NCBI RefSeq assembly: GCF_017854565.1 | Contig: NZ_JAFMHJ010000002.1 | Coordinates: 1 to 64,000, forward strand | Origin: Yoonia sp. | GTDB taxonomy: Bacteria > Pseudomonadota > Alphaproteobacteria > Rhodobacterales > Rhodobacteraceae | Length of the DNA stretch: 64,000 nucleotides | Direction of reading: 5' to 3' | Part shown: positions 8,172-26,921 of the stretch, one piece after another | Layout of the letters: each line of letters opens with the position of its first letter | Numbering within the stretch: position 1 is the first letter of the stretch | Translations under genes and position numbers: made by a program | The notes under the pieces: model-generated | What the model was told of the DNA's origin: nothing | The model's database searches: none | Seen by the model: only the letters and a program-made list of their open reading frames with translations

Positions 8172-8684
8172 TCAATCGAACAGCTTGTCGCCTTCGTAGA
8201 CGGGGGTGCCGTCGCGAAAGCTGCGGAGGTCATGCAGGAATGACTGGGTCAATCGCAAAATCATCAACGCAAATCCGATGGGTACAGCCATCAAAAACCA
8301 GACCATCGAAACCCGCAGGCCGTGGCTGACCGATCCGAACTTCCACGAGACGTAAACCGTTTCCCACGACCAATAAAGTGCGATGACCGCGACGCCGAAC
8401 ATCACCAGATCGCCAAAAATATACAGCAGTGCCTTGGGTCGTGGCCCTAGGTAATGCATGATCACGTCAATGCGGATATGGGCACGGTCCTTGACGGCTG
8501 CTGCGGCGCCGATCCATGCCAGATAGATAAATGAATAGCGCACGATTTCTTCGCCCCAGATCGACGAATAAGAAAAGATTTCGCGGCGCAAGACTTCGAC
8601 CGCCATTGTCAGCACCAGCATCACGTAAAACAGCAAAAGCGCCCAGCGTTCAGCGTCGCGATTCAATCTGTGCAGTAAATTCAT
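8172..8684 (-). CDS. TRAP transporter small permease (DctQ)
   Basis: A 170-residue protein with four predicted membrane helices (ALLLFYVMLVLTMAVEV; YSFIYLAWIGAAAAV; LLYIFGDLVMFGVAVIALYW; VSMVWFLMAVPIGFALMIL), the usual DctQ topology. The motif WGEEIVRYSFIYLAW is common in the family. It has a good ribosome-binding site (AAAGGGATTCACC before ATG). It lies between dctP, separated by a stem-loop, and dctM. Confidence 0.92.
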   Translation of the reverse strand: MNLLHRLNRDAERWALLLFYVMLVLTMAVEVLRREIFSYSSIWGEEIVRYSFIYLAWIGAAAAVKDRAHIRIDVIMHYLGPRPKALLYIFGDLVMFGVAVIALYWSWETVYVSWKFGSVSHGLRVSMVWFLMAVPIGFALMILRLTQSFLHDLRSFRDGTPVYEGDKLFD

Positions 8685-8760
8685 GGTGAATCCCTTTTGC
8701 GGCTTTGCCGAATGGATCGGCTGGGCGTGACCGACACGTGATGAATGGTGTGAAAAGCGC

Positions 8761-8786
8761 GGCGGGCACCGTAAACGGCACCCGCC
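8761..8786 (-). terminator. Intercistronic stem-loop between dctP and dctQ
   Basis: GGCGGG pairs with CCCGCC outside an inner CCG-TAAA-CGG stem, with a 2x2 CA/CA bulge. On the transcript it begins 9 nt after the dctP stop and is followed by GCGCTTTT. It probably acts as a 3' stabiliser or partial terminator that keeps binding protein in excess over permease. Confidence 0.6.
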
Positions 8787-8794
8787 TGTTTCTC

Positions 8795-9943
8795 TCAGGC
8801 ATCATTGACGTAATAGCGGCCCATTGTGCCAGCTGCCTCTTCAAGCTTGGCAAAGGTATCCATCGACCCTGCCAATTCCATTTTGAAGCTGTCCCATTCG
8901 GGCAACTGATAGCCGCCTGCGGCCTGCCACTCGGCCAGTTGATCATCGGAAAGCGAGTGGAACTCCACACCAGCCTTGCGCAATTCAGCCATGGCGTAGT
9001 TGCGTGATGACGGCACCTTTGCAAGGTTCTGGTGGCGCGTGATTTCGGACGCTTCCATGATACCATCCTGCACGTCAGACGGCATCGCATTGAACCACTC
9101 AAGGTTACATGAGTAGACTTGGCTGTCAGGCACCGCCTGTGTGAATGTGACGTGGCTCAGAATGTCCTTGAAGCCAAAGACGTACAGCGCGCCAACCGAT
9201 GGATCCAGCGCATCTGCGACGCCTTGCTTGATCGCCGAAGGCGTTTCGCCCCAGGCAACCGGCGTCGGGTTTGCACCGACCATGCGGTAGTACTGCTGCA
9301 ACATCGCAGAGCCGGGCACGCGGAATTTGATACCCGACAGATCGCCGGGCGCCAGAACCGGGCCAGCGCCGCCAGCCCGAATAGCCACGACCCGTGGGTC
9401 GATATTCACATAGAACAGCGACTTGAAGCCTGCGGCCTCAATCTTTGGGTTCACTTCCTGTGCCCAGACGTCAGAGTGTACAAGGTTCGTAAAACGCTGG
9501 TTTGACCCACACAGGTACGGCATGTTGATCAGGTCGACCACAGATGCGAACGGCGCGAAGTTCGACAGCGAATGCTGCGCGGCCTGGATGGTGCCCGTCT
9601 GCACCTTCTGAACCAGCGCACCGCCAGCCCCGAGTTGACCGCCGGGCGCAAGCTTGACGTAAATCTTGCCGTTGGTTGCGTTTTGAATGTTTTCCTTGAG
9701 GTCCAGCTGCATGATCGGATAGCTGCGTGTCGCGCCCAAGACGTAGGCTGTCGCAATGGTCATGACATGTTCGGCGGCTTGTTCACGATCGCGCTCTTCA
9801 TTCGCGGTCTGGGCCGTGGCCTCGGTCGACCAAAGCGTTCCTGCGGCACCCGCCACGACAGCCGCCGTAAAGCTGCCCGCGCCCGCCAGCTTGAGAAAAT
9901 TCCGGCGTTCTGCCGACTTCAGTTCTGCGTTCTCTTTTTCCAA
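8795..9943 (-). CDS. TRAP transporter solute-binding protein (DctP), Tat-exported
   Basis: A 382-residue periplasmic binding protein. It starts with a twin-arginine signal (ERRNFLKLAG, then hydrophobic AAVVAGAAGTL and cleavage near ATAQTA). The fold is the DctP/TAXI-like TRAP type: GQLGAGGALVQKVQTG is the ligand-domain start and the conserved Arg region is IKFRVPG. The start is TTG at 9943 with a strong GGAGG 7 nt upstream. It is followed by a stem-loop. Together with DctQM it should bring a polar organic anion, probably DHPS, into the cell. Confidence 0.9.
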   Translation of the reverse strand: MEKENAELKSAERRNFLKLAGAGSFTAAVVAGAAGTLWSTEATAQTANEERDREQAAEHVMTIATAYVLGATRSYPIMQLDLKENIQNATNGKIYVKLAPGGQLGAGGALVQKVQTGTIQAAQHSLSNFAPFASVVDLINMPYLCGSNQRFTNLVHSDVWAQEVNPKIEAAGFKSLFYVNIDPRVVAIRAGGAGPVLAPGDLSGIKFRVPGSAMLQQYYRMVGANPTPVAWGETPSAIKQGVADALDPSVGALYVFGFKDILSHVTFTQAVPDSQVYSCNLEWFNAMPSDVQDGIMEASEITRHQNLAKVPSSRNYAMAELRKAGVEFHSLSDDQLAEWQAAGGYQLPEWDSFKMELAGSMDTFAKLEEAAGTMGRYYVNDA

Positions 9944-9975
9944 TAGTCGTCCTCCCTGGACAGGTTCACGCTGCG

Positions 9976-10149
9976 CTACTTTTTGGCTGCAGCTTCTTTT
10001 TCCAAAATTGCAATCACGAACAAAACGGCCACGCCACCAAGGACCAGCATTTCGCCTACGTCATTCAAAAACGCAGCGTTGGACGCGGACCCCAGTCCGA
10101 CGTTCGCCGCGAATATTAAAAGCAAGATGATAGCCCCGATAAGCGACAT
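9976..10149 (-). CDS. Small membrane protein at the head of the TRAP operon
   Basis: A 57-residue protein with two hydrophobic helices (LIGAIILLLIFAANVGL and MLVLGGVAVLFVIAIL) and a charged tail (EKEAAAKK). I chose ATG at 10149, which has a strong GGAGGAAACGCATC leader; the frame extends to 10227 but that part overlaps the candidate operator repeats. It is the first gene of the sulfonate operon, 32 bp before dctP. I know no named family. It may assist the transporter, but this is a guess. Confidence 0.65.
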   Translation of the reverse strand: MSLIGAIILLLIFAANVGLGSASNAAFLNDVGEMLVLGGVAVLFVIAILEKEAAAKK

Positions 10150-10188
10150 GATGCGTTTCCTCCCAGTCACACAGCCGATTCCATCCCT

Positions 10189-10227
10189 ATGCAAGCCTTT
10201 ACATCGACATAATGCAAGCCTTGACAT
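10189..10227. promoter_or_regulatory. Two direct repeats in the lacI/sulfonate-operon divergent promoter
   Basis: ATGCAAGCCTTTACAT (10189-10204) and ATGCAAGCCTTGACAT (10212-10227) match at 15 of 16 bases and start 23 bp apart, about two helical turns. They lie between the divergent lacI gene and the small membrane protein gene. They are the best candidates for binding sites of the LacI-family protein, although classical LacI operators are palindromic. Confidence 0.5.
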
Positions 10228-10305
10228 TTAATTTTTTATGCTTGATCCAGTTAGGCCGGACCGGACCGAAATCTATGCAGCACGAAATTCACGCCAAGGA
10301 GCGAA

Positions 10306-11328
10306 ATGAAAGCCCATAGACCGACACCAACGCTTCACGATGTCGCCAAGGCAGCGGGCGTTTCAACCGCAACAGTATCGCGGTGTTTGAACTTTCCCGA
10401 TCAGGTCGCAGTGCGCACGCGCGAAAGAGTCATGAACACGGTGCGCGATATGGGCTATTCCCCGAACTTTGGCGCCAGAGCCATGGCCGCGCGGCGCACC
10501 AACACCATCGGGGCGATCATTCCAACAATGGAAAACGCGATCTTTGCGCGCGGCTTGCAGGCGTTCCAGGAAGAATTGCGGCTGCATGGGTTCACCATGC
10601 TGGTCGCAAGCACGTCATACCGCCCCGACATCGAAGCAGAACAAATACGGACGCTGGTGGCACGGGGCGCGGACGCCTTGTTGTTGATTGGCCACGAACG
10701 CGACCCGGAAATCTATCGTTTCCTAGAGGCGCAAGGCGTTCCTTGGCTGGTCACGTGGGCATTTGACCTTGACGCGGGGTGCCCGTCGGTTGGTTTTGAC
10801 AATCGTGCGGCGATGTATGCGATGGCCCAGAAAGTCATTGCGTTGGGGCATCGCCGACTTGCGCTCATCTCGGCAGAGACGGCGATGAATGATCGCGCAA
10901 GAGCACGTAAAATCGGGATACTCGAGGCGATGGACGAAGCCGGCATCGACCGGGATGAACTGCACGTCATCGAGACCCCGTACGGCATCGAAAACGGGGC
11001 CGCTGCCTTTACTGATTTAATGCGGCAAGCGCCGCGTCCGACCGCCGTGTTCTGCGGTAATGACGTGTTGGCCGTCGGTGCGCTGCGGCAGGCGCAGGCG
11101 TTGCACATTGCTGTCCCGGCCGACCTGTCAATTATGGGCTTTGACGATATTGAACTGGCCCGGGTCGCCTTCCCTGCCCTCACCACGGTGCACGTGCCCC
11201 ATCGAGAGATGGGCAGGCGTGCGGCCCAAGCACTTGTTCGGATGGTGCAGGGCGGAATCACCGAAGCGCCCGTCGAACTGGCCGCGACACTGGTTTTCCG
11301 GGACACTCTTGCGCAGGCACCTGCCTAA
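10306..11328 (+). CDS. LacI-family transcriptional regulator of the sulfonate operon
   Basis: A 340-residue LacI/GalR protein. The helix-turn-helix is TLHDVAKAAGVSTATVSRCL, followed by the hinge helix NFGARAMAARRTNTIG (minor-groove leucine replaced by Met-Ala) and a sugar-binding-protein-like core. The core ends with NDVLAVGALRQA and IMGFDDIELA, typical for the family. It has a good Shine-Dalgarno sequence (AAGGAG). It is transcribed divergently from the TRAP/hps/com operon, which points to local control by DHPS or an intermediate. The effector is not known. Confidence 0.9.
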   Translation: MKAHRPTPTLHDVAKAAGVSTATVSRCLNFPDQVAVRTRERVMNTVRDMGYSPNFGARAMAARRTNTIGAIIPTMENAIFARGLQAFQEELRLHGFTMLVASTSYRPDIEAEQIRTLVARGADALLLIGHERDPEIYRFLEAQGVPWLVTWAFDLDAGCPSVGFDNRAAMYAMAQKVIALGHRRLALISAETAMNDRARARKIGILEAMDEAGIDRDELHVIETPYGIENGAAAFTDLMRQAPRPTAVFCGNDVLAVGALRQAQALHIAVPADLSIMGFDDIELARVAFPALTTVHVPHREMGRRAAQALVRMVQGGITEAPVELAATLVFRDTLAQAPA

Positions 11329-17794: not shown

Positions 17795-18925
17795 TTAGCG
17801 ATCAAGTGCCGCGCGCCGATCAATCGCATGCCGCACGGCCAGATCAATGGTCTGCTGACCATGATGTTCAAATACAAAGCGCCGACCGGCATCAATCAAT
17901 CGGCCCGCCAATTGCGGATCAGCCGTCAGTCGCTGCAGCGCTGTGACAAAGTCGGCATCTGTCTCGGCCAACAAAAACGTACCATCGGGTACGACGTCCA
18001 ACCCCTCGACGGCCTTGGCGGTCGCGACGACAGGCACGCCCATGGCCATCGCCTCCAACACTTTCAAACGGGTGCCGCCGCCTTGGGCCAACGGGATCAG
18101 GGCCACTGTCGCACGCGCATAGAAAGGCGCCAGATCCGCAGGGTCGCCAATCAATGTGACACCGGGCACGCCAGCGGCATGGCGGCGCAAAAGCCGGCCC
18201 GGCGATCTGCCGCAAATGTCCAGCGTGGCATCGGGGAACACCGCGCGGATTGCCGGCTGGATACAGTGCAACAGTCGTTTGCCGGCTTCGATATTGGGCC
18301 GATACCCAAGATGGCCGACAAACAGCGCCCGCGCGATCCAGGGATCAGGCGGTGAATGTGGTTCAGCGTGCCGGCACCACGCAGGGGCGGGGTTGGGGAT
18401 AACGTCCATCAATATATGGTCCCCGACAATGCGTTGCATCAATGCCACATCGCGTGCCGAACACATCCAGATCCGATCAGCAATTTCGGCCAATTGCCTT
18501 TCAGCGGCTTGGGCGTATCGCCAGCGCTTGCGAAACCGCAGAGCGGCCAGCCAGCCATATTTTGCCCGGTCAACTTCTTGTTGCAGTGCGCTTTCGACAT
18601 TGTGCATGTCGATAATCACGCGACGCCCATCTGCGATCAGCCGCTTGGCGATGTCGCCCAGAAATACGCCGTCAACCACCACCATATCCGGGTCTATCCG
18701 CGCAACTTGCCCGGCAACGTCCGCAATGACCACAGGCTGCAGGTCCGCTTCGATGAACGATACCTTGCGCGTCGGGTAGCGCTTTTGCGTGCCATAGCAG
18801 TCCTGTACTGCTATGGTGTTGGTCCGCGCAACGCCGGACAGGCCAAGGCCCACGGCAAGGTTTCGCAAATCAGCACCAGATCCATGCGCCAGCGGAGGTT
18901 CATATACGATATGTACGATGTTCAT
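17795..18925 (-). CDS. Glycosyltransferase, GT4 family
   Basis: A 376-residue GT-B glycosyltransferase of the RfaB/GT4 type. The N-terminal Rossmann domain begins MNIVHIVYEPP with a Gly-containing loop (HGSGADLRN). The C-terminal domain has ARALFVGHLGYRPN, LDICGRSPG and the nucleotide-sugar signature PLAQGGGTRLKVLEAMAMGVPVV (residues about 300-320; the usual E-x7-E is partly changed). It transfers a sugar from an activated donor to a polysaccharide or lipid acceptor that cannot be named from sequence. ATG at 18925 lies inside the start of the divergent glycosyltransferase gene. Confidence 0.85.
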   Translation of the reverse strand: MNIVHIVYEPPLAHGSGADLRNLAVGLGLSGVARTNTIAVQDCYGTQKRYPTRKVSFIEADLQPVVIADVAGQVARIDPDMVVVDGVFLGDIAKRLIADGRRVIIDMHNVESALQQEVDRAKYGWLAALRFRKRWRYAQAAERQLAEIADRIWMCSARDVALMQRIVGDHILMDVIPNPAPAWCRHAEPHSPPDPWIARALFVGHLGYRPNIEAGKRLLHCIQPAIRAVFPDATLDICGRSPGRLLRRHAAGVPGVTLIGDPADLAPFYARATVALIPLAQGGGTRLKVLEAMAMGVPVVATAKAVEGLDVVPDGTFLLAETDADFVTALQRLTADPQLAGRLIDAGRRFVFEHHGQQTIDLAVRHAIDRRAALDR

Positions 18926-20518
18926 GGGCACAGCCTGACAATTTCACATTGCATCCATCAAACATGGAAAACCGAGGACATTCCAGACCCCAAGGAATGG
19001 CCAGACAGTTGGAAGCGCCTGAATCCCGGCTGGGATTATCGGCTCTGGACGGACAGTGATTTGCGCGGCCTTGTCCACGACCACTATCCCGAGTTGGAGG
19101 ACCTTTATTTGTCCTATCCCAACCCGGTGCAGCGGGCAGACATGGGGCGTTATCTGATCCTGCATCATTGCGGCGGGGTCTATGCCGACCTTGATACCGA
19201 ATGCGTCTCCCCGCTTGATGTCATCGCGCAGGACACGCGGGTGATCTTGGCCGAAGAGCCGATCGAGCATCACCATCACGCCACCCGGCTTGGCCTTAGC
19301 CGTGTGATTTTCAACGGCGTCATGGCCAGCCCCAAAGGGCATCCATTCTGGGAACATCTTATCGCGCTGCTGGTTCGGTCGCGGCATGCCAGCGGCTATG
19401 TACTTGAATCTACCGGTCCTGTCGTTTTGACAAGCGCGGTGGCGACATTCGACGAACCTGACACCCTTGCCATCCAGTCCTGTCATCTGTTCAATCCGCT
19501 GACCGACCAAGGGTGGCGCAGCACGGCTGTGCCATTTGGCGATTATGCGGGTCACCATATCTGCAACCACTATTGGCGTGGGTCGTGGTATCGCCTGCCG
19601 ACGTCCAATCGCACGACGCGCATGAAACGCAAGCTCCGCAAGGCACAATACAACCTGACACGCGGCCCGTTTCTGGGCCAGATGCAGCTGAAAAAGCAAA
19701 TCAACATGTCGGTTTTGCATCGCCCCGTGGCACCGACCGACACCAATGTCAGTATCTTGATCCCGGTGCGCGATGCAGAACCGTTTCTGGATCGGTGCTT
19801 TGCACTGCTGCTGGCGCTGGATTACCCAAAGGATCAGTTGAAAATCGTCTTCTGCGAAGGCGACAGCACGGATCACACGACTGAGAAACTGGCGGAGTTG
19901 GCAGATAAGCACCGCAGTGAATTCCGCGATATTATCGTGACACGCTGCGTCACGGGCGCCCCGCTGGACCGATCCAAGCGGTGGCTTCGTGCGCTGCAAC
20001 TGGCCCGCCGCTCCAATCTGGCAAAGGTGCGCAATCACTTGATTGATCGGGGCATCGCGGATGACGATCACTGGGCGCTTTGGATTGACGTAGATGTCTG
20101 CGACTATGATTCCAGCGTTCTGAAACGACTTCTGGCCGAACGGACCAAGGTCGTCACACCCGATTGCGTTCTTGAGTGGGGCGGGAAAAGCTATGATTTG
20201 AACGCATTTCATGACGACGGCAGCGCGCGCGACCATACCTATTACAAATACGTAAAACGCGGCCTGTTCATGCCGCCGGTCACCTACCGTCAGCGCCGTC
20301 CGCTGCATGCGTTACGTTGCCTTGAACGGGTGCCCTTGTCATCGGTCGGGGGCACCATGTTGCTGGTGCACGCGGCGGTGCATCGGGCCGGCGTGCGGTT
20401 CCCCGAAATTCCATATGATGATTTGCTGGAAACCGAAGGTTTTGGACGCAGTTGCCGGGATTTTGGCGTGACGCCCATCGGGCTTCCGAATGTGCAGATC
20501 AAACATGTAAAGTCGTGA
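18911..20518 (+). CDS. Two-domain glycosyltransferase: OCH1-like (GT32) fused to Anp1/Mnn9-like (GT62)
   Basis: A 535-residue protein. Residues 13-100 match the GT32/OCH1 pattern: CIHQTWK, W..LNPGWDYRLWTD, QRADMGRYLILHHCGGVY, then DXD as DLD (93-95). Residues 279-535 match the Anp1/Mnn9 (GT62) pattern: SILIPVRDAE, CEGDSTDHT, SNLAKVRNHLI, WALWIDVDV (DXD 393-395), VVTPDCVLEW and YDLNAF. In yeast these families start and extend the alpha-1,6-mannan backbone. A basic linker of about 40 residues (TRMKRKLRKAQ) joins the domains. There is no signal peptide or membrane helix, so it should be cytosolic or peripheral. ATG at 18911 is chosen because the GT32 fold begins right after it; 18884 is an alternative. 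The long upstream frame to 18356 is antisense to the GT4 gene. Confidence 0.82.
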   Translation: MYDVHGHSLTISHCIHQTWKTEDIPDPKEWPDSWKRLNPGWDYRLWTDSDLRGLVHDHYPELEDLYLSYPNPVQRADMGRYLILHHCGGVYADLDTECVSPLDVIAQDTRVILAEEPIEHHHHATRLGLSRVIFNGVMASPKGHPFWEHLIALLVRSRHASGYVLESTGPVVLTSAVATFDEPDTLAIQSCHLFNPLTDQGWRSTAVPFGDYAGHHICNHYWRGSWYRLPTSNRTTRMKRKLRKAQYNLTRGPFLGQMQLKKQINMSVLHRPVAPTDTNVSILIPVRDAEPFLDRCFALLLALDYPKDQLKIVFCEGDSTDHTTEKLAELADKHRSEFRDIIVTRCVTGAPLDRSKRWLRALQLARRSNLAKVRNHLIDRGIADDDHWALWIDVDVCDYDSSVLKRLLAERTKVVTPDCVLEWGGKSYDLNAFHDDGSARDHTYYKYVKRGLFMPPVTYRQRRPLHALRCLERVPLSSVGGTMLLVHAAVHRAGVRFPEIPYDDLLETEGFGRSCRDFGVTPIGLPNVQIKHVKS

Positions 20519-20591: not shown

Positions 20592-20978
20592 TCAGGCCCC
20601 TTCGAGACCTTTCAGGATCGGGCAATCGGGGCGATTGTCACCGGCACATTCCTGCACCAATTCCGCCAGCGTATCGCGCATGGCGGCCAGACCGGCGATC
20701 TTGGTCTCGATCTCGGTCAGGTGGTGTTTGGCGATGGCACGGACATCGGCGCTGGCGCGGCTGCGGTCACCCCATAGCGCCAGCAGGTTGCGACAGTCTT
20801 CGATGGAAAACCCAAGCGCGCGGGCACGGGCCAGAAACGCCAGTTTATGTGCATCGCTTTGACCAAAGATGCGGTAACCGTTCGCGCCCCGCTCCGGCGT
20901 GACCAGCCCGATGTCTTCGTAGTAGCGGATCGTCTTGGCAGGTAGTCCGGTCTGGGTGGCGACGTCACCGATATTCAT
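20592..20978 (-). CDS. cueR: Copper-responsive MerR-family activator CueR
   Basis: A 128-residue MerR protein. The winged HTH has [20 protein letters not shown] and [11 protein letters not shown] dimerisation helix follows, then a metal loop CAGDNRPDC with Cys111 and Cys119, almost the same spacing and positions as the Cu(I) ligands Cys112 and Cys120 of E. coli CueR. The ATG overlaps the copA stop (ATGA), so it is made from the copA transcript. It should bind the promoter at 23432-23462 and activate it on Cu(I), Ag(I) or Au(I). Confidence 0.92.
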
Positions 20979-23404
20979 GATGCTATCCCTTTGACCCAGC
21001 GCAGACGCAGGGCATTTGTGACGACCAGAACGCTGGACAGCGCCATCGCCCCAGCAGCAAGCGCCGGTGACAGCAGCACGCCCCAGACCGGATAGAGAAC
21101 CCCTGCCGCGACCGGCACCAGCAACACGTTATAGCCGAACGCCCAGCTAAGGTTTTGCCGGATATTTGCCATCGTGGCCCGGCTGACCGCGATGCCATTC
21201 AGCACGCCGACGGGGTCGCCCGACATCAGCACGACATCCGCGCTTTCCACGGCGACATCGGTGCCGGTGCCGATGGCAATGCCGACATCAGCGGCAGCCA
21301 GAGCGGGCGCATCGTTGATCCCATCCCCGACAAAGGCCACCTTGGCCCCATCCGCCTGCAAGGCCCGGATCGCGTCAACCTTGCCAGCGGGCAGCACATC
21401 TGAAATCACATCCGCCACGCCCAGCTCTGCGCCAATCGCCGCGCCCGTGCGTGCGGCGTCGCCGGTGATCATCACCACCCGCACGCCTCGCGCCTGCAAA
21501 CCCGCGATGGTCGCCTTGGCGCTGGGGCGCAGCGTATCGGCCACGCCGATGACACCGGCCGCGGCCCCGTCGATGGCGACCATGATCGCAGTCTTGCCTG
21601 CTGAGGACAATGCGGCGGCCTGTGCAACCAGCGGTTCGGGGTCGATGCCTTCCTTTTCCAGCAATCGCGCCGCGCCGATCAGCACCCGGCGCCCGTCCAC
21701 CAGCGCAGACAGGCCGTGGCCGGTGATCGCGGCAAAGTCCGTCACTGCCGGGAACGGTTTTTGGGCCGCTGCCACAATCGCGTGACCCAGCGGATGTTCT
21801 GACAGCGCCTCGACTGCGGCGACATCGCGCAACAGGGTGTCCGCGTCGCCGTTCAGCGGGATCACGTCGGTCAGGGCGGGTTTGCCCATGGTCAGCGTGC
21901 CGGTCTTGTCAAAGGCCACCACATCGACGCCTTGCAACGCCTGCAGCGCATCCCCCTGACGAAACAGCACACCCAGTTCCGCCGCGCGCCCGGTGCCCAC
22001 CATGATCGACGTCGGCGTCGCCAGCCCCATTGCGCAGGGGCAGGCAATGATCAGGACGGACACGCCCGCGACCAAAGCATACGACAGCACCGGCGCCGGG
22101 CCCAGCACCAGCCAGATCAGCACCGTCAGCGTCGCGATCACCATAACCCCCGGCACGAACCACGCCGTGACCCGGTTGACCAGATCCTGCACCGGCAGGC
22201 GCGCGCCCTGGGCCGCTTCGACCATCGCGATGATGCGCGCCAGCATCGTGTCGCCGCCGACTGCCGTCGCACGCATTTTCAGCGCACCATTGCCGTTGAC
22301 GGTGCCACCGACCAGCGTGCCGCCTTTGGTTTTCTCTACGGGCACGGGTTCGCCGGTAATCATGCTTTCATCCACGAATGACGCGCCATCGCGCACCACC
22401 CCATCGGTTGCGATGCGTTCGCCCGGCCGGATGATCAGGACATCGCCGCGCACCACATCGGCAATCGGCACCTCTATCTCGGCACCGTCGCGCAACAGGC
22501 GCGCGGTGGCGGGGCGCAGGCCGATCAGGCGTTTGATCGCCGCCCCGGTCTGGCCCTTGGCCCGCGCCTCGAGCCAGCGGCCCAGCAAGATGAGGGTGAC
22601 GATGACGGCTGCCGCCTCGAAGTACACAGCGCGGGTGTCGGCGGGCAGCAGGCCGGGCGCGAAAAGCGCGATGGTGGAAAACGCCCACGCCGCCGAGGTG
22701 CCCAGCACCACAAGCGAATTCATGTCAGGGGACAGACGGATCAACGCAGGCACGCCTTTGGTGAAAAAACCCCGGCCCGGCCCGGCCAGCACGAGCGTCG
22801 TCAGGATAAACTGGATCATCCAGCTGGTCGGCGTGCCGATCGTGCGTGCGATCAGGTGGTGCAGGTCGGGAAAGATGTGGCCGCCCATTTCCATCACAAA
22901 GACCGGCAGGGTCAGGGCCGCCGTAATCAAGAAGTGACGCAGATACACCTTGGCCTCTTGGGCCTGGCGGTTGTCGGTGGGCTGTGTGGTGTCAAGCGGG
23001 GCGGCGGCATAGCCGACAGCGGCCACCGCGTCCTGCAATGGGACCGGGTCGGTCAGGGTGATCACGGTGGCAGTGGCGTCGGCCAGATTGACCGTGGCCG
23101 ACAGCACGCCGGGCACGTCTTGCAGGGCGGTTTCGACCCGATTGACGCAGGACGCACAGGTCATGCCAGTGATGGCGAGACGCATTTTTTGCGGCAACGC
23201 GGGATATCCCGCTGCTTTGAGCGCGCCCGCGACGGCCCGCCCGGTGCCCGCACCATCAAGCTGCACCGTCGCGGAGGCATTGGCGAGGTTCACATGCGCC
23301 TGACGAACGCCCGAGACGGCTGTAATCGCTTTTTCCGCGCGCCCCACGCAGGATGCGCAGGTCATCCCGTCGATGCCGAATTTGATCTCTGTGGCCTGTG
23401 CCAT
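20975..23404 (-). CDS. copA: Cu(I)-exporting P1B-type ATPase CopA
   Basis: An 809-residue copper pump with two N-terminal metal-binding domains (GMTCASC at residues 13-19 with Cys16/Cys19, and at 80-86 with Cys83/Cys86). It has eight membrane segments, the ion site CPC in IIACPCAMG, the phosphorylation motif DKTGTLT, the hinge [10 protein letters not shown] and the later membrane copper ligands (FGYN and MALSS). This set defines P1B-1 Cu+ export. The operator before it is a CueR-type promoter. A 4-bp overlap links it to cueR. Confidence 0.96.
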
Positions 23405-23480: not shown

Positions 23481-24815
23481 TCAGCCTTTGCCTTTCCACG
23501 GCACCAATATCCGTTCGGCCCAGCGCATCAGCATGTCGATGCTGAACCCGATGATCCCGATCAGGATGATGCCCATCAACACGATATCCGTGCTTTGGAA
23601 TTTGGACGCGACCATGATCATCATGCCGGCCCCCTTTTCTGCCGCGACCAATTCGGCGGCGACCACGGTGCCCCAGCAGACGCCCATCGCCACGCGCGCC
23701 CCGGTGAAGATTTCGGGCAGCGAGTTGGGGATGATCACATGGCGCATGATCTGCCATTTCGATGCGCCAAGGCTGTAGGCCGCATGCACCTTGGAAATCC
23801 GCACGCCGGACACGCCGGATCGCGCGGCAATGGCCATGATCCACAGCGCGGCAAGGAACAGCAGGATGATCTTGCCCACTTCGCCGATGCCCGCCCAGAT
23901 GATCACCAACGGGATCAGGGCCAGCGGCGGCACCGGGCGCATGAATTCGACGATCGGATCAAACCAGCCGCGAAACCAGTTGGACAGCCCCATCGCATAG
24001 CCTAGCGGGATGCCGATCAGCGCCCCGAGCGTAAAGCCGACGATGACCCGGAACAGCGAATAGCCAAGGTGTTCGGCAAGGGTAGAGTTGCGGTAGCCCT
24101 CGGTGGCGATTTCGGTCATGCGTTTCCACACCGCTTCGGGGGCGGGCAGCCAGATTGGTTCCATCTGCACGCCAGACGCCGGGATGATGTTCAACGTCCC
24201 TTTGCCGGACATCGTGACGCTGCCGAAAGCCACTTTGACGGACCCGTCAGGCGCGATGGGCTGGCCGTTGACGGCGGTGACGAACGTGCCGTCGTCGCGA
24301 CCCATTTCGTCGTTGTTGTCGACCCGCAGCAGCGCGCTGCGATAGCTGGCGATAGCGATGGCATCATTCTTGGCGATCCCATCACCGGGACTGATTTCGG
24401 GGGCTGCGGTTTCGACCGTGGCGGGATGCACCACGACCGAAACCGTCGCATCGTCGGTTTGCCCGTCCGGTGTCATGATCGTATAAGTAAACGACCCGTC
24501 ACCCACGAATGGCCCCGGCGCATGCATGAAACCGGGCAGCAATCGGGACCCGGTGAACGCCGCCCAAAGGACAAAGATCAGCACGATGGACACCACCGAT
24601 GCGACCGAATTCGAGGTTACCGCGCTTTCGTCACCAAAGGTCACGGTCTTGAGAGAGCTATAGTCATGTTTGGGGGTCAACAGCCGTTTGATCCCGGTCC
24701 AGATCATCATCGTCAGCAGGATCAGCAGGATGTAGCCAATCACATAGGGGGCTGCTGCGAAAAGCGTTTTGAGGACGGCCCAGAGTTCGCCCCAGAGGTT
24801 GCCAAGCAATTCCAT
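23481..24815 (-). CDS. tauC: Taurine ABC transporter permease TauC with a periplasmic insertion
   Basis: A 444-residue protein, longer than the usual TauC/SsuC permease of about 260-280 residues. Residues about 245-440 are the normal permease core, with EAA-loop-like YSLGASKWQIMRHVIIPNSLP. In front of it lie two extra helices (about 22-42 and 71-89) and a periplasmic insertion (about 100-220). The insertion carries GDGSFTYTIMTPDGQTDDAT and NGQPIAPDGSVKVAFG, which look like cadherin/VCBS-type beta-sandwich repeats. It overlaps tauB by one base. It imports taurine with TauA and TauB. The role of the insertion is unknown. Confidence 0.88.
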   Translation of the reverse strand: MELLGNLWGELWAVLKTLFAAAPYVIGYILLILLTMMIWTGIKRLLTPKHDYSSLKTVTFGDESAVTSNSVASVVSIVLIFVLWAAFTGSRLLPGFMHAPGPFVGDGSFTYTIMTPDGQTDDATVSVVVHPATVETAAPEISPGDGIAKNDAIAIASYRSALLRVDNNDEMGRDDGTFVTAVNGQPIAPDGSVKVAFGSVTMSGKGTLNIIPASGVQMEPIWLPAPEAVWKRMTEIATEGYRNSTLAEHLGYSLFRVIVGFTLGALIGIPLGYAMGLSNWFRGWFDPIVEFMRPVPPLALIPLVIIWAGIGEVGKIILLFLAALWIMAIAARSGVSGVRISKVHAAYSLGASKWQIMRHVIIPNSLPEIFTGARVAMGVCWGTVVAAELVAAEKGAGMMIMVASKFQSTDIVLMGIILIGIIGFSIDMLMRWAERILVPWKGKG

Positions 24816-25630
24816 TATGCAGTCTCCGTCCGGCCCATGATTTCTTCTTCCATATCCCAGATCATCCCCAGAATTTCTTCGCGGGTTTCGGCGAATTTAG
24901 GGTGCTTCTTGACCTCGCGCAGGTCTTGACCGACGCCCATTTCTGCAAAGGGCAGGCGATATTCGGTGTGAATGCGACCGGGGCGCGGGGCCATCACGAT
25001 CAGGCGCTCGCCCAATAGCAGCGCCTCTTCCACAGAGTGGGTGATCAGGATGATCGTCTTGCCGGTTTCCTTCCACAGCTTCAGAACAAGGCCCTGCATC
25101 TTTTCACGCGTCAGCGCATCAAGCGCGCCAAGCGGTTCATCCATCAAGATCACGTCGGGTTCATTGGCAAGGCAGCGGGCCAATGCGACGCGCTGCTGCA
25201 TGCCGCCCGAAAGTTCATAAACCGCCTTGTCTTTGAAATCCTGCAGGCCGACCACATCAAGCAGGTGATCGACGATCTGCGCCTTGGGCGCTTTGGCCAT
25301 GCCTTTCATCGACGGGCCGAAACCGACGTTTTCACGCACGCTCATCCATTCGAACAGGGCGCCCTGCTGAAACACCATGCCGCGTTCCGGGCCGGGGCCG
25401 CTGACGGTTTTGCCATTCAGGATTATGGTGCCTGCGGTTGGGGCCAAAAACCCCGCAACGATATTCAGAAGAGTCGTTTTTCCGCAGCCCGATGGCCCCA
25501 GAACCGATAGTAGCTCGCCTGCTTTCAGGTCGACGGACACGTCTTGCAGCGCCTGCACCGATGATCCGTTCGGCAGGTCGAACCGCATGGATAGCTTGTC
25601 TATTTGAAGTCCCGACATATGCCGCCCCAT
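24815..25630 (-). CDS. tauB: Taurine ABC transporter ATP-binding protein TauB
   Basis: A 271-residue ABC ATPase of the nitrate/sulfonate/taurine family. It has Walker A GPSGCGKTT, the Q-loop GMVFQQGALFEW, signature LSGGMQQRVALARCLA, Walker B VILMDEPLGALD and the switch His in LITHSVEEA. The start is ATG at 25630 (MGRHMSGLQ), with AGGA 6 nt upstream; the ATG at 25618 is an alternative. It powers TauC. It lies about 100 bp after tauA, with a hairpin between them. Confidence 0.93.
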   Translation of the reverse strand: MGRHMSGLQIDKLSMRFDLPNGSSVQALQDVSVDLKAGELLSVLGPSGCGKTTLLNIVAGFLAPTAGTIILNGKTVSGPGPERGMVFQQGALFEWMSVRENVGFGPSMKGMAKAPKAQIVDHLLDVVGLQDFKDKAVYELSGGMQQRVALARCLANEPDVILMDEPLGALDALTREKMQGLVLKLWKETGKTIILITHSVEEALLLGERLIVMAPRPGRIHTEYRLPFAEMGVGQDLREVKKHPKFAETREEILGMIWDMEEEIMGRTETA

Positions 25631-25686
25631 TGTTGTTCCTGAAAATCCTTGCGCGGCGCAGGCAAGGATCATCACGACAACCAAGG

Positions 25687-25719
25687 GGCGGCTGGCGCAG
25701 CGAACCCGCGCCAGCCGCC
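25687..25719 (-). terminator. Strong stem-loop between tauA and tauB
   Basis: A perfect 12-bp stem (GGCGGCTGGCGC, 25687-25698, with GCGCCAGCCGCC, 25708-25719) and a 9-nt loop, starting 9 nt after the tauA stop on the transcript. No U-tract follows. It likely stabilises tauA mRNA or ends part of the transcripts before tauBC. Confidence 0.7.
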
Positions 25720-25727
25720 GATCGTTA

Positions 25728-26735
25728 TTACATCGCTTCGGCGGCAGCCAATGGGCCGATGTTGATGGTCCCGGCGTAGCTGCCCAAGGCGGATGGGATC
25801 GAACCGGAATCGACAAACACGTCGGCCACGCCCTTCATGAAGGCAGGGGCCGCGCCGCCCAGCCATGTAGGAGACAGCTGATCTGCAACGCTGGGGAATA
25901 CGAATGTCGCCATGGTTTCGGCGGTTGCGGCTTCGTCCATGCCCGCGTCCTGGGCGATGACGGGCAGCATTTCCGCCACGCCTGAACCGTCATTCCATGC
26001 GGCATTTGCCGCCGCTGTGACGGCGAGGAATTTCGCCACGACATCGGGGTTTTCGGCGACAAAGGACGCGGGGGCCGATGTGACGTCAAACACCAAAATA
26101 CCCAGCGCTTCTTTTTCGGCACCGGTCAGCAGGACATTGCCGTGCTCTTTCATGCGGCGCAGCGCACCGCCCCAACCGCAGGCCATATCGACCTGACCCT
26201 GGGCAATCGCCGCAGCACCATCGGCGGGGGCCATGTCCACGACATCAAGCGAGGCAAGATCGACGCCAAAGTGGTCCATCTGGCGCAGGAAGCCATAGTG
26301 CGCAGCGGTGCCCAGCGGCACGGCGACCTTTTTACCGGCCAGTTCAGCGGCGCTGTCCTTGTCGATCTCAAGCCCGGACGACACGACGCAGTTGTCGTTT
26401 TCCGCGTAGGATACGGCGACATCAAGGATTTGCAGATCCTGCCCCGCAGAGACCGCGACGACAAAAGGTGGCACGCCTTGGCTGACTGCGATTTGCACAT
26501 CACCCGATGCCATGGCAGCCGACATTGCGGTGCCGCTGTCGAAACTGACCCAGTTCACCGTCATGCCCAGCGCCTCATCGTAGGTGCCGTTCACCTTGGC
26601 GAATTGAAATGGCATCGGCCATTCCAGAAAATAAGCGACGGTAAGTTCGCTGTGACCTGCGGCCATCACCTGTGTCGTGCCGGTCATGATCGCCACGCCG
26701 GCCACAGCACTCATTAGTGTCTTCTTGAGGTTCAT
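25728..26735 (-). CDS. tauA: Taurine-binding periplasmic protein TauA
   Basis: A 335-residue protein with a Sec signal peptide (cut near QVMAAGHS). The NMT1/TauA-like fold shows TVAYFLEWPMPFQ, DSGTAMSAAMASGDVQIA, GKKVAVPLGTAAHYG and MACGWGGALRRM. The last two regions match TauA ligand-site segments. ATG at 26735 has GGGAGACGATCAA upstream; the longer frame is not used. First gene of tauABC, divergent from tpa across a 460-bp regulatory region. Confidence 0.93.
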   Translation of the reverse strand: MNLKKTLMSAVAGVAIMTGTTQVMAAGHSELTVAYFLEWPMPFQFAKVNGTYDEALGMTVNWVSFDSGTAMSAAMASGDVQIAVSQGVPPFVVAVSAGQDLQILDVAVSYAENDNCVVSSGLEIDKDSAAELAGKKVAVPLGTAAHYGFLRQMDHFGVDLASLDVVDMAPADGAAAIAQGQVDMACGWGGALRRMKEHGNVLLTGAEKEALGILVFDVTSAPASFVAENPDVVAKFLAVTAAANAAWNDGSGVAEMLPVIAQDAGMDEAATAETMATFVFPSVADQLSPTWLGGAAPAFMKGVADVFVDSGSIPSALGSYAGTINIGPLAAAEAM

Positions 26736-26921
26736 TTGATCGTCTCCCATGTTGTGACCCGTGATATGGGCCATGAATTGGGCAGGGTTCGCCCCGCCTC
26801 TGTAGCGTCTAACTGACCATGATTCTCGTCAGGTGCCTAGCCCCGTCCGGTGCAGCAAAATGTCGGCGCGCGCCTGCCGGACAAAACGATGTTTGCAGTG
26901 CGTTGCATGTGAGCCAAGGGA

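Follow-up and report, generated by a model that had tools for sequence, protein, structure and literature searches.

A bacterial protein joining GT32 and GT62 domains, a probable bifunctional glycosyltransferase linked to a GT4 gene

In the window (the whole 64 000-nucleotide stretch of DNA that was analysed), a bacterium related to Loktanella encodes a protein of 535 residues in which a GT32 domain and a GT62 domain are joined in one chain (Table 1). Yeast uses domains of these two kinds in building its mannan coat. We propose that the protein is a cytosolic bifunctional glycosyltransferase which, together with the GT4 enzyme encoded by the divergent gene, adds successive sugars to one glycan, a reading to which we give a probability of about 0.6. 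The earlier note had described this architecture, with a DXD motif in each domain, a basic linker between them and a head-to-head GT4 gene, and each of these elements was found again.

Table 1. Positions in the window of the fusion gene, the elements of its protein and the neighbouring GT4 gene.
Feature	Position	Strand	Basis or correspondence
Divergent partner GT4 gene	17795..18925 (ATG 18925; GTG also possible at 18931)	-	PF13692, E = 2e-21
GT32–GT62 fusion gene	18911..20518	+	535 residues; Pfam, alignment of relatives, AlphaFold2 model
5'-end overlap of divergent fusion and GT4 genes (predicted, 15 bases)	18911..18925		
GT32 (Gly_transf_sug) domain	18938..19606	+	About residues 10-232; PF04488 match, start of relatives at residue 10
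DXD 1, D93-L94-D95	19187..19195	+	Aligned with Och1 D187-M188-D189
Basic, partly helical linker	19607..19714	+	About residues 233-268
GT62 (Anp1/Mnn9) domain	19715..20515	+	About residues 269-535; PF03452, Mnn9 profile and fold match
DXD 2, D393-V394-D395	20087..20095	+	Aligned with Mnn9 N236/D238 (Mn ligand D238)
Y-D-L-N, residues 428-431	20192..20203	+	Aligned with Mnn9 D280/N282; by numbering, AnpA acceptor residues D286/N288
H532	20504..20506	+	Aligned with Mnn9 His389 (Mn ligand)

For the C-terminal half, Pfam places PF03452 at residues 276–500 with 121.8 bits (cut-off 28.8; E = 4.7e-35; positions 19–262 of the 263 in the profile), and a profile comparison with Mnn9 (3zf8) gives E = 1.6e-36. 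Mnn9 is also the best match in a Foldseek search with the predicted model (E = 2.4e-18, TMt 0.74). An assignment to ordinary GT2, which the earlier note had raised as the alternative, is ruled out, because PF00535 (29.2 bits, cut-off 23.3) spans only the fragment at residues 281–345 and Mnn9 comes first by both profile and fold. The Mnn9 fold of the predicted model, together with the manganese-binding aspartate and histidine located by alignment, places this half in GT62. We aligned the window protein with 27 of the 34 two-domain loci (alignment A2, which omits L032, L035, L042, L043, L046, L048 and L049, most of which have no clear ATG close to the domain), and both Pfam domains are matched in all 28 members. 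Residues P285, R357, R366, D393, D395, D429, N431 and H532 are kept in all of them and R287 in 27; they align with the metal, phosphate, guanosine and acceptor residues of Mnn9 and AnpA.

In the N-terminal half, PF04488 matches residues 32–110 (58.5 bits against a cut-off of 23; E = 1e-15) and the middle residue of the DXD is hydrophobic (L, I or M throughout the 28 sequences), which places this half in GT32. Residues D48, D77, R80, D93 and D95 are invariant in the alignment and T18 is kept in 26 sequences, all aligned with donor-site residues of Och1. A profile built from twelve fusion GT32 domains matches Och1 with E = 1.7e-14. However, the window's own domain matches Och1 less well (E = 4e-5) than the unfused GT32 of the same genus that served as the single control (L116; E = 8e-6). 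Against this one control it is thus not placed in the Och1 subfamily, defined as being closer to Och1 than unfused bacterial GT32 is, and to judge by sequence it looks like a generic GT32. The earlier idea of an ‘initiating plus extending’ pair of mannan enzymes in one chain is not supported in that form.

The AlphaFold2 model of the whole protein is confident (pLDDT 94, pTM 0.91); among solved structures Mnn9 is its best match and Och1 the 20th, with LARGE1 and K4CP also among the matches. The model contains a helix at residues 234–250 in the linker, which is the least conserved part of the chain (mean pairwise difference 0.75, compared with 0.54 for the GT32 part and 0.51 for the GT62 part). 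Pairwise distances in one half correlate with those in the other (r = 0.85), a value reached by none of 2000 Mantel shuffles, and their trees (61 of 89 GT62 domains plus Mnn9, and 55 of 81 GT32 domains, the omitted rows being mostly near-duplicates from Streptomyces and Azospirillum) are largely congruent; the two halves are therefore co-inherited. The root of the GT62 tree is unsure, since Mnn9 sits on a very long branch (3.06).

A search of GTDB genomes gave 166 GT62 loci, of which the best 80 were kept for architecture. GT32 lies in frame upstream of GT62 in 73 of these 80; the fusion is not unique to the window and is common among bacterial GT62. This recurrence and the correlated distances of the halves rule out a chance joining of the domains. 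GT62 is fused to or adjoins GT71, the Mnn1/2/5 family of yeast mannan enzymes, in five of the other seven kept loci (five of six when only untruncated loci are counted); L091 is a GT71–GT62 fusion, and L022 is a GT4–GT62 fusion whose GT4 is barely above the cut-off. The two-domain form is found at L018 and in Mesorhizobium (L046 and L051), and L056, where the two-domain module has a long in-frame N-terminal extension, was counted with the multi-domain loci. PF03452 occurs across several phyla of bacteria and in a single archaeal MAG, which bears out the earlier note's placing of GT62 outside fungi, yet the family is rare: in a sample of 398 genomes from the phylum it is present in 4, the window's own included. 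The fusion is carried by 6 of 55 genomes of the genus. One copy (G022) is split over frames, and the GT62 domain of another (G432) is changed at positions 319, 431 and 507, invariant in alignment A2; the enzyme is therefore dispensable and perhaps subject to decay.

In a 2017 survey whose species set took in 52 bacteria and 15 archaea, PF03452 was detected in fungi only (PMC5225481), in contrast to the distribution seen here, where the family in the examined loci has GT32 or GT71 as its joined partner in nearly every case. Our literature search found no publication on a GT32–GT62 fusion and no function in print; of the earlier reservation that the architecture might be already described and common with a known non-mannan function, its being common is borne out among bacterial GT62, while the search gave no support to the rest. 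Bacterial proteins are thus available for testing GT62 catalysis and GT32–GT62 cooperation, and the loci form a data set for examining where the mannan enzymes of fungi came from.

The gene is likely to start at 18911, since the first methionine of most aligned relatives falls at residue 10 of the window protein and the stretch further upstream is antisense to the GT4 gene. The longer reading of the frame, which extends upstream to 18356 (720 residues), was rejected as the start of the gene on the same grounds. The predicted starts of the divergent pair likewise overlap or touch in L031, L034, L036, L039, L053 and L014. The GC content across the pair is about 0.575–0.605, against 0.58–0.67 in the surroundings, a signal of foreign composition too weak to be used, and no sigma-70-like site was found between 17700 and 20700, an uninformative result where 1.5 would be expected. 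Phage or viral carriage was rejected: phage records gave no match to the GT62 half at E = 1e-5, and none of the nine stretches that matched a pattern in IMG/VR is a relative.

Of the 34 two-domain loci, 22 have a GT4 homologue nearby, with divergent, tandem and convergent orders all represented, and the other 12 show none in the examined flank (up to 7 kb, with some contigs ending there). A GT4 homologue also adjoins three of three further fusions and is found near none of the 38 multi-domain loci. Within the genus, three of the four GT4 carriers also have the fusion (six fusion carriers among 55 genomes; hypergeometric probability 0.003, kinship ignored). G029 has GT4 without the fusion, G009 and G019 have the two on separate contigs, and G006, G022 and G432 have the fusion with no GT4 match at E = 1e-20. 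We also scanned 101 of 140 listed neighbouring ORFs, leaving out near-duplicate genus loci and very long or doubtful ORFs; GT4 hits had been removed beforehand, and some of the scanned ORFs are possibly spurious frames. GT25 occurs in 7 of the 101, and the 25 of 104 neighbour families covered include no flippase, polymerase or exporter.

These comparisons suggest a scheme in which one cytosolic chain would hold two metal-dependent GT-A active sites. Each of the two halves, GT32 and GT62, would use a nucleotide donor to transfer one type of sugar, sequentially or in alternation, and both would extend a shared oligosaccharide. The separate GT4 enzyme would contribute another residue, and the fusion would hold the intermediate in one place. 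A short cell-surface glycan (a glycolipid, an LPS-type glycan or the side chain of a glycoprotein) would be the most likely product, in preference to an exported polymer, given the lack of flippase, polymerase and exporter among the listed neighbour families. We put the use of mannose in one or both sites at somewhat below even odds, and it may be that one half is no longer catalytic although its residues are retained.

Could the protein instead be a compact bacterial alpha-mannan synthase, its GT32 half starting and its GT62 half extending an alpha-1,6-mannose chain from GDP-mannose, a single-chain counterpart of the pairing of Hoc1 (GT32 family) with Mnn9/Anp1 (GT62) in yeast M-Pol II? The protein retains the residues that in fungal GT62 bind metal, donor and acceptor, the acceptor D-x-N among them, and the couplings seen in the best 80 of the 166 loci, to GT32 (73) or GT71 (5), involve yeast mannan families in both cases. 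Among the components of M-Pol II, Hoc1 belongs to PF04488 (PMC5225481). TIGR01479 (ManC) matches 24 of 25 searched genomes, 22 of them above the cut-off, the window's genome included. However, ManC is no marker of the fusion, since it is also present in six of six searched genus members without it; the match is below the cut-off in carriers G423 and G426, and carrier G424 (L039) has none, its four NTP_transferase hits resembling RmlA, GalU, GlmU and MurU. The case of G424 makes GDP-mannose doubtful as an obligatory donor. Moreover, the GT32 half shows no special likeness to Och1, and GT71 is absent from all 28 searched genomes with a GT32-fused GT62. The earlier mannan-synthase idea thus gains from the GT71 partners of GT62 loci without GT32 and loses by the generic GT32 half and by G424, and we regard it as unlikely. 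Slightly less likely still is a wider version, in which the mannan toolkit of fungi exists as linked modules in bacteria and in one archaeal MAG, the two-domain protein is a one-chain mannan-type extender, and a prokaryotic module of this kind was the source from which fungi acquired GT62, perhaps along with its partners. An origin of the GT62 and GT32 domains outside fungi is in itself possible.

An alternating copolymerase, whose halves would use different donors to make a disaccharide-repeat polymer as LARGE1 and K4CP do, is improbable: the chain is compact with two distinct GT-A-type domains and both enzymes are among its structural matches, but these reflect general GT-A similarity (query TM 0.26–0.30), export genes are lacking among the listed neighbour families, and a GT2 domain sits between the halves in three-domain relatives. 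Least probable is a protein with one catalytic half and one acceptor-binding or docking half: degenerate domains are known in multi-GT proteins and G432 is changed at conserved GT62 positions, but both DXD motifs, with all four aspartates, and their partner residues are present in every one of the 28 aligned sequences, the window's own included.

The bifunctional transferase proposed here can be set beside several known systems. LARGE1 and K4CP, like the fusion, have two transferase domains per chain, but belong to other GT families and make proven repeat polymers. The three-domain GT32–GT2–GT62 proteins of Streptomyces, cyanobacteria, Azospirillum and others have the same first and last domains and differ by the GT2 between them (matched by Pfam in six of six long forms scanned, with weak model hits in most others); L015 and L066 have a GT4 in addition to the middle GT2, and in 25 actinomycete loci a common gene follows that of the three-domain protein (GT2 in two of two scanned). 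One bacterial GT62 is already in print: the Mnn9 homologue of Mesorhizobium opportunistum serves as outgroup to root a tree, in a passage that does not mention a second domain (PMC9769593). With yeast Och1/Hoc1 (GT32, PF04488) the fusion has in common the DXD with a hydrophobic middle residue and the Och1 donor-site residues, whereas its GT32 half is shorter, and L116, the one control, is at least as close to Och1. Passages on the GT32 family link it with the transfer of mannose, galactose and glucosamine (PMC6993521) and place GlcNAc-transferring bacterial toxins in it (PMC12312940). Yeast Mnn9/Van1/Anp1 and Aspergillus AnpA (GT62, PF03452; alpha-1,6-mannosyltransferases) share with the fusion the whole catalytic domain and the predicted fold, as well as the Mnn9 manganese ligands D238/H389, the phosphate arginines and the acceptor D-x-N (AnpA residues mapped by numbering). 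Compared with Mnn9, the fusion is bacterial, is joined to GT32 and has an aspartate at the first DXD position in place of Asn236 of the Mnn9 structure. Finally, yeast M-Pol II brings GT62 and GT32-family subunits together, whereas the fusion has both in one chain. The yeast complex further contains Mnn10 and Mnn11, which belong to GT34 (PF05637). The M-Pol II proteins are anchored in the Golgi membrane; most aligned relatives of the fusion begin at the GT32 domain itself.

The fusion of a GT32 with a GT62 domain is a real, conserved and little-noticed bacterial architecture: one chain whose two transferase sites look intact, accompanied by a GT4 gene in many carriers. Both domains, as well as the positions of the two DXD motifs, are as the earlier note had called them, each domain exceeding its Pfam cut-off within one 535-residue frame. 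A GT2 assignment of the C-terminal half was rejected, the Pfam match being weak and confined to residues 281-345. The frame is open upstream as far as 18356. The first methionine of most aligned relatives falls at window residue 10, so the gene likely starts at 18911. With the ATG at 18925 taken as the start of the divergent GT4 gene, the two 5' ends would share 15 bases. Anp1 has a single match in the whole source genome (3.5 Mb, 108 contigs).

Features of the window and of related loci (L-numbers, GT62 loci in GTDB genomes; G-numbers, genomes)
Feature	Locus	Position	Strand	Remarks
GT32-GT62 fusion gene	window	18911-20518	+	535 residues by frame translation
Gly_transf_sug (GT32) domain	window	residues 32-110		58.5 bits (Pfam cut-off 23)
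Anp1 (GT62) domain	window	residues 276-500		121.8 bits (Pfam cut-off 28.8)
GT4 gene	window	17795-18925	-	head-to-head with the fusion
CueR regulator, copper P-type ATPase	window	20592-23404
Taurine/sulfonate-type ABC transporter genes	window	23481-26774		includes 444-residue permease
Split fusion copy	L021 (G022)	9580-11123		several frames
GT4-GT62 frame	L022 (G217)	8313-10244		643 residues; GT4 barely above cut-off; no GT32
GT71-GT62 fusion	L091	5183-7780
333-residue gene	L018	10550-11551		conserved in L026, L027, L127

When GTDB genomes were searched with eleven GT62 domains, 488 stretches matched, of which 166 encode relatives; the best 80 were kept, a set biased towards the kin of the window. 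GT32 lies upstream in the same frame in 73 of these best 80 of 166 loci, and one further locus (L086) is interrupted by the end of a contig. Within the same 80, the two-domain form (approximately 540 residues) accounts for 34 loci, mostly from Alphaproteobacteria plus two Verrucomicrobia MAGs, and the longer forms (approximately 800-900 residues) are usually GT32-GT2-GT62. The latter occur in Streptomyces, other actinomycetes, cyanobacteria, Chloroflexota, Verrucomicrobium, Parabeggiatoa, Rhodoferax and an archaeal Methanolinea MAG; contamination is possible for loci in MAGs. Pfam GT2 was found in all six long forms scanned (L015, L059, L066, L096, L099 and L103) and is suggested by weak model matches in most others. 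The longest forms, of up to about 1980 residues, are from Azospirillum: L066 and L073 (approximately 1830-1980 residues) combine GT32, a GT2-type domain and GT62 in one protein, and L066 additionally carries TPR repeats, a GT-D-like domain and GT4. Six plasmid records hold relatives, five from Azospirillum and one from Gemmobacter aquarius, all named ‘glycosyltransferase’ by NCBI; the Gemmobacter member is two-domain, with GT25 after the fusion gene and GT4 head-to-head with it.

The GT62 family is rare in the sampled genomes, with 4/398 in the phylum sample, 3/385 in the class sample and 1/150 in a sample from the family of a Streptomyces, each tally counting the genome from which the search started. 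Among the three of the class sample, one (G221) is below the cut-off and another (G217) has a GT4 domain, just above the cut-off, in place of GT32. In the genus of the window the fusion is present in six of 56 genomes (36 searched with the whole protein and the remainder via PF04488 only; G432 was checked separately). The G022 copy is split, by a pseudogenization or an assembly error, and the G432 copy departs at three positions that are invariant in the 28-sequence two-domain alignment. Trees of the GT32 and GT62 halves recover largely identical groups, and in each tree a well-supported branch separates the proteins with the two-domain module from the others. Weaker forks disagree, the window grouping with Octadecabacter L028 by its GT32 half (88) and with Loktanella by its GT62 half (82), and the placement of Azospirillum L066 and L073 shifts between trees. 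Pairwise distances of the two halves correlate at 0.85 (0 of 2000 shuffles as high). For the most part, the halves have travelled together.

The GT4 gene that the earlier note placed head-to-head with the fusion is indeed there. With a model partly made from these same loci, a homologue was detected in the vicinity of 22 of the 34 two-domain loci, no more than 0.9 kb away in 21 of them and 2 kb away in L040; eight are divergent, 11 tandem and three convergent, the window and Gemmobacter being additional. GT4 is also near GT62 without GT32 at L091, L097 and L100; none was found near the 38 multi-domain loci examined (L056 is outside this set). Three fusions of the phylum sample (G523, G712 and G764), possibly close kin of species already counted, all have GT4 just upstream on the same strand. 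Of ten divergent pairs (eight loci, the window and Gemmobacter), seven have predicted starts that touch or overlap (the window, L031, L034, L036, L039, L053 and L014); the starts are separated by about 11 bases in L030 and about 250 in L043, and L052 is the tenth pair. One CATG is common to both predicted ATGs in L031, L034 and L036, and each upstream region therefore lies within the coding region of the partner. Ten of the 11 tandem pairs were examined, and in eight of them GT4 has its stop codon 14-54 bases ahead of the conserved HQxW codon; these genes therefore overlap or directly adjoin. Of 55 genomes of the genus, four have GT4, and three of these carry the fusion (p = 0.003, kinship ignored); in two genomes with both, they are on different contigs. 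In Loktanella-like loci (L018, L026, L027 and L127) the 333-residue gene, without a Pfam match in the copy scanned (L027), takes the place of GT4 directly downstream. GT25 accounts for seven of 101 scanned neighbours; the 25 neighbour families shown, out of 104, include no ABC-2 exporter, flippase or polymerase. In the window, an ordinary copper unit adjoins the glycosyltransferase pair; in the transporter genes beyond it, the best-family match of the permease begins only at about residue 218.

Searches of an open-access collection, which lacks most subscription papers, gave no paper on a bacterial GT32-GT62 fusion. A Mesorhizobium Mnn9 homologue is already in print as an outgroup (PMC9769593, excerpt). 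The GT2, GT4, GT25 and GT32 genes named in flagellar islands (PMC6993521, excerpt) are a reminder of the many glycans that such families serve.

An AlphaFold2 model, computed from an alignment of the window protein with those of 27 of the 34 two-domain loci (28 sequences in all), reached a pLDDT of 94.0 and a pTM of 0.91. Its best Foldseek match among solved structures is yeast Mnn9 (3zf8; E = 2.4e-18, target TM 0.74), followed by LH3 and COLGALT1; Och1 (9n3s) ranks 20th (E = 5e-10), and further matches include LARGE1 and K4CP. A profile of eleven GT62 halves covers the entire Mnn9 domain (1.6e-36), with COLGALT1 second (5e-8). With 3zf8 numbering brought to that of the papers by an offset of 90, derived from a printed alignment, Mnn9 Asn236, Asp238 and His389 align with window Asp393, Asp395 and His532, and Asp280 and Asn282 with Asp429 and Asn431. 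AnpA Arg208, Arg217, Pro128, Arg130, Asp286 and Asn288, which in simulations contact the phosphate, guanosine and acceptor (PMC9769593, excerpt), correspond, by residue numbering alone, to Arg357, Arg366, Pro285, Arg287, Asp429 and Asn431. All of these window residues are identical in 28/28 aligned sequences, except Arg287 (27/28). In the GT32 half, Och1 Thr103, Asp139, Asp171, Arg174, Asp187 and Asp189 (PMC12312940, excerpt) align with Thr18, Asp48, Asp77, Arg80, Asp93 and Asp95, kept in 28/28 except Thr18 (26/28). Given this conservation, both active sites look able to work.

A function of the fusion in mannan synthesis, as a one-chain analogue of yeast Hoc1 plus Mnn9/Anp1, is a good hypothesis and not a result. 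Och1 is the best solved match of the GT32-half profile (1.7e-14), but it is also that of the single unfused control GT32 of the genus (8e-6), which the window GT32 alone does not improve upon (4e-5). TIGR01479, for GDP-mannose supply, matches in 24/25 genomes (22 above cut-off; six fusion-less genus members included, the genome of L051 left out); all six fusion-less members match, so that it is no marker of the fusion. Two carriers (G423 and G426) match below cut-off, and a genome search of a third, Pseudooceanicola antarcticus (G424, L039), gave no match. The four NTP_transferase matches of the latter, in the partial stretches scanned, resemble RmlA, GalU, GlmU and MurU; unless the assembly is incomplete, this species would lack the standard GDP-mannose route, which argues against mannan. 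In favour is the coupling of GT62 to GT32 or GT71, both families of yeast mannosylation enzymes. Six untruncated loci among the best 80 of 166 lack GT32 (L091, L097, L098, L100, L101 and L102), and in five GT71 (PF11051) accompanies GT62, fused in L091 and adjoining in L098, L100, L101 and L102. Over 53 genomes, grouped by us, PF11051 is present in four of five with GT32-less GT62, and in none of 28 with the GT32 fusion, the one with a GT4-GT62 fusion (G217) or 19 others; in the class sample it has one weak match (1/385). In the genomes examined, GT62 is thus coupled to either GT32 or GT71, never both. The yeast enzymes fall into the same three families: Och1 and Hoc1 (PF04488; Hoc1 being a component of M-Pol II), Mnn9/Van1/Anp1 (PF03452) and Mnn1/2/5 (PF11051) (PMC5225481, excerpt).
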